From assembly GCA_009930275.1 (NCBI GenBank), contig RZYP01000017.1, positions 1 to 32,228 of the forward strand: a DNA stretch of 32,228 nt, written 5' to 3'. The DNA is from Negativicutes bacterium (GTDB lineage: Bacteria; Bacillota_C; Negativicutes; Acidaminococcales; Acidaminococcaceae). A model generated the notes under the pieces. The model was not told the DNA's origin. It did no database searches and saw only the letters and a program-made list of their open reading frames with translations. Below, piece by piece: positions 27,117 through 29,772 of this stretch; position 1 is the first letter of the stretch; each line of letters starts with the position of its first letter. The position numbers were made by a program, and so were the translations under genes.

Positions 27117-27145
27117 TTGAGAATACAATATACTTATGCTAAAAT
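27117..27145 (+). promoter_or_regulatory. Promoter of the regulator / AAR-like operon
   Basis: TTGAGA (27117-27122) and TAAAAT (27140-27145) are 17 bases apart. The start site would be near 27152, inside the inverted repeat described separately. Confidence 0.72.
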
Positions 27146-27147
27146 AG

Positions 27148-27170
27148 AGTGTGCACAAACTGTGCACACT
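27148..27170 (+). promoter_or_regulatory. Perfect inverted repeat with two TGTGCACA palindromes, probable operator
   Basis: Arms AGTGTGCACA (27148-27157) and TGTGCACACT (27161-27170) are separated by AAC. Each arm contains the 8-bp palindrome TGTGCACA (27150-27157 and 27161-27168), 11 bp apart, which is one helical turn. The repeat sits on the predicted start site directly upstream of an HTH regulator gene. The following TTTATTTT also allows a terminator reading for dusB. Confidence 0.7.
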
Positions 27171-27197: not shown

Positions 27198-27728
27198 ATG
27201 GAACCTATACGTATTGGCGATAAACTAATCAACAAAAATAAAATTCATCAACAGATAGATGCCATGCTGGATTTAAGGATGCAGGGATTTTCACAACAGG
27301 AAGTTGCCAAGGCCTACGCGACTGATAGAGCCTTTGTTTCCCGTGTCGAAAGCTTGGGAGAGATCCGCAAAGGCGGCAGAGTGGCTTTAGTTGCCTTTCC
27401 CATCAGTAACAAGGAAGAGATTCTGGCACTGGCGGCGCAGGAAGGTATAGAGTTTTCAGTTGTTTTCAGTGAAAAAGAACGCTGGGCATTTTTAAGGGAT
27501 AAAAGCGGGGTACAGTTATTCAATGAGGTAATGACTATCGTCGCCAAACTCCGCGAAAGCGACGTGCTTATAGTCGCGGCTTCAAATATGAGAATAAATC
27601 TTGCGGAAGCCATCGTGGACAAACATGTTATAGGTATAACAATGGGCGAGTCACCAATTGAGGAAGATAAATATCTTGAACCGCAGCTAATAAAGAACAT
27701 TATGCAGAAAATTAAGAAGGTGCCATGA
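27198..27728 (+). CDS. HTH transcriptional regulator, first gene of the AAR-like operon
   Basis: A 176-residue protein. Residues about 20-50 (LRMQGFSQQEVAKAYATDRAFVSRVESLG) are written here as positions only in part: QGFSQQEVAKAY is the first helix pair and RAFVSRVESLG the recognition helix of an HTH. The remainder (55-176) is an alpha/beta domain (GGRVALVAFPI, DVLIVAASNMR) that I cannot assign; it may sense a ligand. The ATG follows GAAGGCGG by six bases. The stop overlaps the next gene by four bases (ATGA). With the operator-like repeat at its own start site, autoregulation is likely. It is not a recognised classical family (TetR, GntR, LysR). Confidence 0.82.
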   Translation: MEPIRIGDKLINKNKIHQQIDAMLDLRMQGFSQQEVAKAYATDRAFVSRVESLGEIRKGGRVALVAFPISNKEEILALAAQEGIEFSVVFSEKERWAFLRDKSGVQLFNEVMTIVAKLRESDVLIVAASNMRINLAEAIVDKHVIGITMGESPIEEDKYLEPQLIKNIMQKIKKVP

Positions 27729-28639
27729 GCGTGAAACATGTGGTAAGCATCAGTTTAGGTTCAAGCTCCAGGGATGCAGTGGCCCAAGAGAATTTTAACG
27801 GCGAAATCGTCCATATTGAAAGACGCGGCACCGATGGTGATAAGGCAAAGGCCAAGAGATTATTTGAGAGTTATGATGGCAAAGTTGATGCTATTGGTTT
27901 GGGTGGAACGGATCTATACATTTTTGCGGGAGGCAGGCGTTATACCTTTCGTGAATCCGCAAGGCTTATCGGGACAGTTCGCCAGACGCCTGTCTTGGAC
28001 GGAAGCGGTTTGAAAAATTCTTTGGAACGCATTGTGATTGCAAATTTGGAGAAAAAGGGTATAATTAATTTTTCGGGGAAGAAAGTTTTACTTGTTTGCG
28101 GTGTTGACCGTTTCGGCATGGCCGAAGCTTTAACAGCTGCGGGGGCACGGGTTACCTTTGGCGATTTGATTTTTGGGCTGGGTCTTGAAATCCCGGTTTA
28201 CTCCTTGAAGGTGTTGTCTTGGATTGCCCGGGTTGTGGCGCCTATCATTACCAAAATGCCGGTAAGTTGGTTTTACCCTGTAGGCACAGAGCAAACAAAG
28301 AGATTAGAGCGTTATCCGAAATATTTTGCAGAAAATGAGATCATCGCCGGTGATTTCCATTTTATTCGCAAATATATGCCTGAACAAATGAGTGGGAAAA
28401 TAATCATTACCAATACGGTTACGCAGCGGGACAGGGAACTGCTGGAAAAAGCAGGTGTCGCCTGTTTGGTAACTACAACGCCTAATTTTAAAGGGCGCAG
28501 CTTTGGTACAAATGTTTTGGAAGCGGCCTTGGTCTCGCTTGCCGGTTGTCACGAAGCCTTGACGGCGAATGAGTATGAAAAAATGCTGGAGAAATATGAT
28601 ATCCAGCCAGGAATAGAATATTTTAGTGTAAAGGGGTAA
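27725..28639 (+). CDS. Conserved protein of unknown function (family often labelled 'quinate 5-dehydrogenase')
   Basis: A 304-residue soluble protein. It begins with a strand pattern, VVSISLGSSSRD, followed by GTDGD and GLGGTDLYIFAGG (57-69), and has a central Rossmann-like segment, KVLLVCGVDRFGMAEAL. Then come TFGDLIFGLGLEIPVYSL, AGDFHFIRKYMPE and NTVTQRDRELL. I recall similar Firmicute proteins carrying the automatic name quinate 5-dehydrogenase. The catalytic Lys/Asp pair of true shikimate or quinate dehydrogenases is not evident, so that name is doubtful. It overlaps the regulator gene by four bases and lies five bases before the AAR-like gene. A partner or accessory role to that reductase is inference. 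Confidence 0.8.
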   Translation: MSVKHVVSISLGSSSRDAVAQENFNGEIVHIERRGTDGDKAKAKRLFESYDGKVDAIGLGGTDLYIFAGGRRYTFRESARLIGTVRQTPVLDGSGLKNSLERIVIANLEKKGIINFSGKKVLLVCGVDRFGMAEALTAAGARVTFGDLIFGLGLEIPVYSLKVLSWIARVVAPIITKMPVSWFYPVGTEQTKRLERYPKYFAENEIIAGDFHFIRKYMPEQMSGKIIITNTVTQRDRELLEKAGVACLVTTTPNFKGRSFGTNVLEAALVSLAGCHEALTANEYEKMLEKYDIQPGIEYFSVKG

Positions 28640-28644
28640 GTTTA

Positions 28645-29730
28645 ATGGAAAAGTTCGCATTTGTCCTTCATCCGCTGGTGGTTGATGATTTTGCACGCAA
28701 ATTCCCAATAATGCGCTACCTGCCGGACTCTTGGATCGAAGGTGCGATGAGAAATGTAAAAGCTTTTAAGATTTCGCATATTACCGGAGTCCGTTCACCT
28801 TATGCCGAAGCTGAAGGGTGGTTTATTGCCTGTCCGCTTACAGCCAGGCAGATGGTCACTTTGCCGGAAGAGTATGTAACCGGTAAGATAATTGAAGCTT
28901 GTCGCCTCGCTCAGGACTTAGGGGCAAAGATTGTTGGTTTAGGGGCGTTTACGTCGATTGTTGGTGACGCTGGTATTACTATTGCCAAAAATGTAGACAT
29001 CGCTGTGACCAGCGGCAATAGCTATACCGTAGCGACAGCGCTTCAGGGGACAAGAGAGGCAGTGCGTCTGATGGGCAAGGACTTGGCCTCGGCACATGTG
29101 GCAATTATCGGCGCAACAGGTTCAATTGGATCAGCTTGTACAAAAATTTTGGCGCGGGAAGCACGGGATATTACTTTGGTGGCCCGGCATCAAGAACGAT
29201 TAGAAGCTTTGGCTGCGGAAATGCGTCCGCATGTGAAGGGGCAGCTAGCTACTTCCGGTGATGTCAAAAAAAGTTTAAGAGACGCTGACGTTGTGATTAC
29301 TGTAACAAGCGCCGTTGACTGCCTCATCGAGCCAAAAGATTTGAAAAGCGGTGCCGTTGTTTGCGATGTTGCCCGCCCGCGCAATGTTTCACGCGAGGTT
29401 TCTGTGGCGCGCAAAGATGTTCTCGTTATTGAGGGCGGTGTTATTCATGTGCCTGGCGATGTTGATTTTGGTTTTAATTTTGGCTTTCCGCCCCATATGT
29501 CTTATGCCTGTATGGCTGAAACTATGATTTTAGCTTTAGAAGGGCGTTATGAGAATTTCTCTCTGGGCAGGGATTTGTCTATCGAGCAAATTGATACTAT
29601 TGCGGATTTAGCTAAGAAACATGATTTTCAGCTAGCTGGCTTCCGCAATTTTGAGAAACCTGTAACCGAAGAAGAAATCGAATCAATTCAACAGTTCGCA
29701 AGTGTGGGGCTTAGTGCGCGAAATGCCTAA
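28645..29730 (+). CDS. Homologue of cyanobacterial long-chain acyl-ACP reductase (AAR-like), NAD(P)-dependent
   Basis: This 361-residue protein aligns by eye with cyanobacterial AAR over most of its length. LGAFTSIV (99-106) matches LGGFTSII, and SGNSYTVA (123-130) matches TGNTHTAY. The Rossmann loop GATGSIGSA (156-164) matches GATGDIGSA, with LVARHQERLEAL after it. EGGVIHVPGDVDF (263-275), YACMAETM (287-294) and EGRYENFSLGR (299-309) also match. Cys289 sits where AAR has its acyl-thioester cysteine (Cys294 in Synechococcus). AAR reduces fatty acyl-ACP to aldehyde with NADPH. Substrate and product here are unproven. AAGGGG lies eight bases before the ATG. Automatic names such as shikimate dehydrogenase would reflect only the Rossmann fold. 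Confidence 0.8.
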   Translation: MEKFAFVLHPLVVDDFARKFPIMRYLPDSWIEGAMRNVKAFKISHITGVRSPYAEAEGWFIACPLTARQMVTLPEEYVTGKIIEACRLAQDLGAKIVGLGAFTSIVGDAGITIAKNVDIAVTSGNSYTVATALQGTREAVRLMGKDLASAHVAIIGATGSIGSACTKILAREARDITLVARHQERLEALAAEMRPHVKGQLATSGDVKKSLRDADVVITVTSAVDCLIEPKDLKSGAVVCDVARPRNVSREVSVARKDVLVIEGGVIHVPGDVDFGFNFGFPPHMSYACMAETMILALEGRYENFSLGRDLSIEQIDTIADLAKKHDFQLAGFRNFEKPVTEEEIESIQQFASVGLSARNA

Positions 29731-29733
29731 AGG

Positions 29734-29772
29734 TTGACAATGACTGCCCAAAAAATTATAATTGAGGGCAGT
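29734..29772 (+). promoter_or_regulatory. Consensus greA promoter inside a dyad
   Basis: Perfect TTGACA (29734-29739) and TATAAT (29757-29762) boxes have a 17-base spacer. ACTGCCC (29743-29749) and GGGCAGT (29766-29772) form a perfect inverted repeat centred exactly on the -10 box. Confidence 0.88.

Follow-up and report, generated by a model that had tools for sequence, protein, structure and literature searches.

We describe a regulated three-gene module, designated P1-P2-P3, in a 32,228-nucleotide stretch of DNA from a Negativicutes bacterium (contig RZYP01000017.1 of assembly GCA_009930275.1, positions 1 to 32,228 of the forward strand; hereafter, the window). The module joins a probable regulator (P1), a protein of no Pfam family (P2) and a probable thioester reductase (P3), and in related genomes its presumed operator also precedes two enzyme sets that would each convert a thioester into an amine. 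In our reading, their common output is probably an amine used for building a lipid. The explanation as a whole, in which P1 is the switch, P3 the reductase, an amine for a lipid the product and P2 the core, has in our judgement an even chance of being correct.

The P1-P2-P3 module and its presumed operator

In the window, dusB and greA-lysS flank three open reading frames (ORFs) on the same strand: P1 (27198..27728, +), a 176-aa probable helix-turn-helix (HTH) regulator that also has a C-terminal domain and is remotely Tfx-like; P2 (27725..28639, +), of 304 aa; and P3 (28645..29730, +), a 361-aa thioester reductase of the AAR/PigE/TamH class, AAR being the acyl-acyl carrier protein (acyl-ACP) reductase. 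The initial annotation had read the trio as a regulated module with an AAR-like enzyme, and the analysis confirmed that reading. Among NCBIfam models, P3 matches PigE at 8.1e-66 over residues 38-353 and AAR (TIGR04058) at 2.2e-38, both under curated cut-offs: homologous to the reductase half of PigE and TamH, it reaches 222.9 bits for that one half against a full-length PigE cut-off of 850 bits, and 132.4 bits against an AAR cut-off of 449.7. With AAR it shares the fold, the dinucleotide loop and the nucleophile, and it has Arg at two of the three phosphate-binding Arg positions. The loop GATGSIG (residues 156-162; 29110..29130, +) aligns with GATGDIG at AAR 162-168, and the alignment check proposed in the initial annotation places Cys289 (codon 29509..29511, +), the predicted acyl-accepting nucleophile, on AAR Cys294. 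In alignments of 39 P3 and 46 P2 sequences, picked for spread from those in hand, Cys289, R181 and R309 of P3 are invariant (39/39), and position 185 is K in 17 sequences, R in 12, P in 6, A in 2 and another residue in 2. AAR residues R189, R193 and R314 are described as binding phosphate, and Tyr247 as lining the acyl tunnel. P3 is therefore, as far as its sequence tells, probably a thioester-to-aldehyde reductase. The aldehyde deformylating oxygenase (ADO) that the initial annotation had found lacking gave no match over the PF11266 cut-off in any of the 25 module genomes searched, and one match below it.

The annotation had also posited a dedicated promoter and an HTH regulator, both of which find support. 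A consensus scan detected a sigma-70-like match at 27117..27145 (+), with TTGAGA, 17 nt and TAAAAT, and TG before the second hexamer, matching the consensus at 10 of 12 positions; the scan yielded 8 promoter-like sites against 5.5 expected in the scanned stretch, so that a single match is no proof. Just 3′ of the second hexamer lies the presumed P1 operator (27148..27170), an inverted repeat AGTGTGCACA-AAC-TGTGCACACT whose arms pair at 10/10 positions and which is the only site in the window at up to one mismatch. The same inverted repeat is common to the upstream regions of P1 relatives: out of 52 related loci, 49 have it (≤1 mismatch) between positions -200 and +60 relative to the P1 start. 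The 1.21 Mb of fetched loci, which were picked around the module and in some cases repeat one genome, hold 72 motif sites, and one shuffle of them holds 0. In two loci without a nearby P1 (L025 and L029) the motif precedes P3. Searching 30 module genomes at zero mismatches returned one site each in 10 and none in 20 (reversed control, 1), and all ten sites lie upstream of P1. P1 itself matches HTH and Tfx-family models weakly, its orthologues also match HTH weakly, and a PDB sequence search gave nothing significant for P1 or P2. P1 is probably a regulator, and more precisely probably a repressor, that would bind the conserved inverted repeat at 27148-27170 and control its own operon.

The module is widespread. 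A species collection contains at least 596 matching stretches; a P3 relative is encoded in 551 of the matches listed, of which the best 80 form the locus set, titled as Negativicutes, Moorella, Thermoanaerobacter, Carboxydothermus, Peptococcaceae and others. Their neighbours comprise greA (70), lysS (68), dusB (67), P2 (63) and P1 (53), counts in which contig ends cut many loci. Of 199 genomes belonging to the same phylum as a Sporomusa relative, 134 carry P3 or its fused form (E ≤ 1e-15), and 154 and 127 carry P2 and P1, respectively (E ≤ 1e-8). A recount from genome rows places P2 in 132 of these 134 genomes, and the two exceptions (G059, G177) carry a fusion only. Gene order, for which only listed places were used (147 of 154 genomes for P2), is likewise conserved where those places allow it to be read, with P1 before P2 (gap ≤400 nt) in 113/124 genomes and P2 before P3 in 94/106. 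A search of one literature library by title and abstract start found no paper on the trio or its motif.

Several further features of these loci were recorded. Directly before greA-lysS in the window, positions 29734-29762 read TTGACA-17-TATAAT, a 12/12 match to the sigma-70 consensus. A 320-aa gene with an HTIEHAxIR-like motif, absent from the window, occurs in 24 of the 80 loci (L030:3471-4433, L024:3424-4398, L047:2771-3736 and 21 others), sits between dusB and P1 in the loci viewed, and gave no Pfam match in three proteins tested and no NCBIfam match in one. Two loci titled Acholeplasmataceae (L001, L002) encode a P3 85-93% identical to that of the window, which otherwise matches Acidaminococcaceae, and these titles look wrong; L029, titled Armatimonadetes, has a P3 of 64% identity in the same coaX-dusB context and is perhaps mis-binned.

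Two enzyme sets under the presumed operator

PigE, from prodigiosin synthesis, and TamH, from tambjamine synthesis, are reductase-aminotransferase fusions, whereas the P3 of the window is a separate protein whose gene sits beside those of P1 and P2 at a housekeeping locus. The same pairing with a class III aminotransferase is nonetheless seen in a number of P3 relatives, through fusion, adjacency or a shared operator. A P3-type match lies inside a frame of at least 853 aa in 31 of the 199 genomes. Four of these long frames were tested, and each matches PF00202, the class III aminotransferase domain (4.5e-92 to 8.7e-102); three have the TamH order (aminotransferase before thioester reductase, TA-TR) and one (L107) the PigE order (TR-TA). 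The fusion gene is directly preceded by P1 in G033, G078, G116 and G201, and by P2 in G133. A search at up to one mismatch in 44 genomes, most of them picked for split components, located 41 sites in 26 genomes (reversed control, 4). These lie upstream of P1 (21), of an aminotransferase (17, of which 13 fused and 4 free) and of P2 (1), with two unassigned, beyond one of which an aminotransferase starts after ~540 nt. The shared operator thus extends, in a number of relatives, to the aminotransferase, free or fused to the reductase. In G099 a free aminotransferase gene is followed 38 nt on by P3, and in G135 a fusion is followed by a separate P3-type gene. The best model for the free aminotransferase is PigE (4.6e-157), putrescine aminotransferase also matching; at 59-66% identity the enzyme occurs in 12 of the other 24 among the first 25 module genomes, and both Moorella genomes (neither of them M. 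thermoacetica) carry P3 together with a 65-66% identical aminotransferase. On plasmids, P3-type matches were found in 17 records, 13 of which have a class III aminotransferase annotated under the match, and a search of plasmids for P2 found none. As a side observation, loci L097-L100 contain, between coaX and the fusion, three (L097-L099) or two (L100) similar-looking ORFs of ~580-625 aa and an ATPase-like ORF.

The second enzyme set appears in 22 genomes with P2 but no detected reductase, which were searched at up to two mismatches together with G175, in which a contig end truncates P3. Sites occur in 21 of these 23 genomes, 63 in total against 18 in the reversed control, and 17 regions with 21 of the sites were viewed (20 non-P1 sites, chosen as the best in each genome, and one P1 site). 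In 14 of the 22 P2-only genomes a site lies ~20-130 nt before a gene for an alpha-oxoamine synthase, with one mismatch in nine (G060, G100, G136, G161, G166, G170, G193, G197, G218) and two in five (G072, G110, G143, G172, G198), and in 12 of the 14 the next gene encodes a TDH-like zinc dehydrogenase. The synthase belongs to the serine palmitoyltransferase/BioF/Kbl family and is nearest to serine palmitoyltransferase and BioF (PDB 3a2b, 1.3e-95), falling under every curated cut-off shown; its partner is the TDH-like enzyme. In G202 the site precedes an aminotransferase gene cut by the contig end.

Synthases of two classes account for 21 of the 22 P2-only genomes. Class 1 (≥57% to L230) occurs in 11 of them and in only 1 of the 132 genomes with both P2 and reductase (G026, where the P3 match is partial, at 33%): the mutual exclusion of class 1 synthase and reductase is strong. 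Class 2 (55-100% to L241) occurs in ten others of the 22, and also in G112 (with P3) and G066 (without P2); it was looked for among class 1 matches only, and its exclusion of the reductase is only suggested. Other genes also carry the motif. In G124 it stands, with 0, 2 and 2 mismatches, before a FabA/Z-domain gene and a FabH-type gene, in a run that goes on with NMO-family (FabK-like), acyltransferase, reductase and ACP genes. This fatty-acid synthesis run (L236:3672-8142) has three motif copies, so that fatty-acid genes may be among the targets of P1 in the lineage concerned. In G197 and G170 (L241:6027-6425 and L242:5907-6365) the motif precedes a FlK-type thioesterase gene near the synthase operon, the domain having been tested in L241 only.

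A probable amine product and its alternatives

By analogy with AAR, PigE and TamH, P3 would take an acyl group from ACP or coenzyme A onto Cys289 and reduce it with NADPH to the aldehyde, which the PigE-type class III aminotransferase would convert into a primary amine. In P2-only genomes, the alpha-oxoamine synthase and dehydrogenase would likewise yield an amine. TamH (TA-TR) together with TamA converts a C12 acid to the amine (PMC9594044), and the action of PigE on its pyrrole precursor was shown in cell lysate, not with purified enzyme (PMC8341465). We infer that the acyl group handled by P3 is fatty. The best named candidate product is the N-glyceroyl alkylamine phosphoglycolipids, which contain a primary alkylamine, the predicted product class, and are found in Thermus, Meiothermus and Deinococcus (PMC3398001, PMC3035268); they are held to be a chemical marker of the Deinococcus-Thermus lineage (PMC3035268), and the passages of these papers that treat them name no gene for the amine. 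A table lists N-glyceroyl alkylamines for Moorella thermoacetica (PMC13274423). The link between lipid and module consists of genus-level co-occurrence in Moorella only, and we treat it as a lead. N-glyceroyl alkylamine lipids are also said, in a 2025 title by Bale et al., to dominate the lipidome of several Bacillota. Running TIGR04058 at E ≤ 1 was uninformative on Thermus and Deinobacterium, since 12 of 14 controls also match.

A number of observations weigh against the explanation as a whole. Single sites with up to two mismatches are weak, because the reversed control gives 18 against 63. At up to one mismatch, 14 of the 27 fusion genomes searched have no site before the fusion; at up to two, only four (G003, G013, G023, G024) of the 13 genomes with the free aminotransferase have one before its gene, and those of Moorella, Thermoanaerobacter and Carboxydothermus have none. 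Among the Negativicutes genomes searched, the PigE-type aminotransferase is found in Pelosinus only, where an operator-like site of N3 spacing lies within two mismatches. In nine other Negativicutes and one record titled Bacillota the best aminotransferase is 45-49% identical, and the motif is not just upstream of any of those fetched; the two that were scored are nearer putrescine aminotransferase. A tree of 35 aminotransferases, built with no outgroup and weakly supported at depth, allows no conclusion on the Negativicutes enzyme. The position of AAR Tyr247 is occupied by Arg244 in 39/39 P3 relatives, so that P3 may take an acyl chain unlike the one used by AAR. In addition, T. wiegelii and F. 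ferrireducens, both of which carry P3 and an aminotransferase, are listed with iso-diabolic acids only, in a table column limited to those acids and related compounds (PMC13274423), and neither an acyl-activating nor a glyceroyl-transfer gene was seen under the operator. As a separate observation, the Negativicutes putrescine-aminotransferase-like gene is often followed (L219-L226) by an ORF of 144-148 aa, SRPBCC-like by eye, and a membrane-protease-like ORF.

Among the alternatives, the one that survives best is that reductase and aminotransferase act on a non-fatty acyl or aminoacyl thioester, the product being a diamine, a polyamine or else a small metabolite of a signalling or secondary kind. 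PigE would be the precedent: the substrate proposed for its reduction is a thioester that derives from 2-octenoyl thioester (PMC8341465). The match of the regulon aminotransferase to putrescine aminotransferase and the Arg244 substitution favour this alternative, whereas lipids are the better fit for the serine-palmitoyltransferase/BioF-like replacement synthase and for the single genome in which the motif precedes fabZ- and fabH-type genes, and in the operator regions examined we noticed no cluster for secondary metabolites; we regard the alternative as unlikely, with roughly one chance in five or slightly more.

Only marginally less probable, and compatible with an amine product, is that P2 and P3 together make up a single heteromeric reductase, with P2 as its catalytically dead subunit of AAR fold. 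Relatives of P2 carry the database name 'quinate 5-dehydrogenase'. The predicted fold of P2 has two domains and, among solved structures, comes nearest to AAR and to the terminal reductase domain of the carmabin pathway (TAD; 19% identity), which the PDB assigns by name to an amino acid adenylation domain protein. The likeness is in predicted fold only: a profile-profile comparison, in which the P3 set includes one L119 ORF added by eye, gave no match of P2 to P3 or AAR. Thr262-Asn263 (28508..28513, +), at the start of P2 helix 262-273, is invariant in 46/46 relatives (an L021 P2 with one stop codon was excluded). From the order of secondary structure, not residue-level superposition, this helix would correspond to P3 helix 288-299, which starts at Cys289. 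In the main explanation, too, P2 would be the constant core of the system: stand-alone P3 was never found without P2 among the 199 genomes, so that P2 would be either a partner of the reductase or the enzyme acting next on the amine.

Less probable again is that the aldehyde is turned into an alcohol, or acts as a redox or overflow valve, with the amine link a lineage-specific extra. Most Negativicutes searched and Tepidanaerobacter have P3 without an operator-linked aminotransferase, and in Fervidicola an ORF resembling an iron-type alcohol dehydrogenase (by eye) adjoins the module. Against this, the P3 genomes examined yielded no alcohol dehydrogenase under the operator, and the operator-sharing dehydrogenase of P2-only genomes comes after an amine-forming synthase.

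The suggestion in the initial annotation that P3 supplies fatty aldehydes for plasmalogens or other ether lipids fared worst and is improbable: the fold and residues of P3 are AAR-like and many anaerobic bacteria have plasmalogens (PMC9702350), but two reductase genes turn diacyl lipids into plasmalogens (PMC9702350) by a route that would need no free fatty aldehyde, plasmalogen-type enzymes are already present, since PF09989 (PlsA-associated domain) occurs in 24 of 25 module genomes (12 with frames of 980-1483 aa), and the operator-linked genes examined include no ether-lipid gene. What relatives place under the operator is either the PigE-type aminotransferase or the alpha-oxoamine synthase, the latter mostly accompanied by its dehydrogenase, and this points to amines.

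Implications of a possible amine regulon

Returning to the amine as product, a more specific form of the proposal is that P1 and P2 define an unrecognised long-chain-amine regulon of anaerobic Bacillota, with two interchangeable front ends (the thioester reductase with the PigE-type aminotransferase, or the serine-palmitoyltransferase-like synthase with the dehydrogenase), which provides the amine of N-glyceroyl alkylamine or similar aminolipids, P2 being a new enzyme that acts on this amine; this form is tentative, and we lean against it more than for it. If the explanation is right, the alkylamine part of N-glyceroyl alkylamine lipids would gain candidate genes together with a regulator and an operator. 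It would also give a role to the widely conserved trio of the dusB-greA-lysS locus, which databases label with the unrelated names quinate 5-dehydrogenase and NAD(P)H-binding protein, and would mean that one switch governs two non-homologous enzyme sets.
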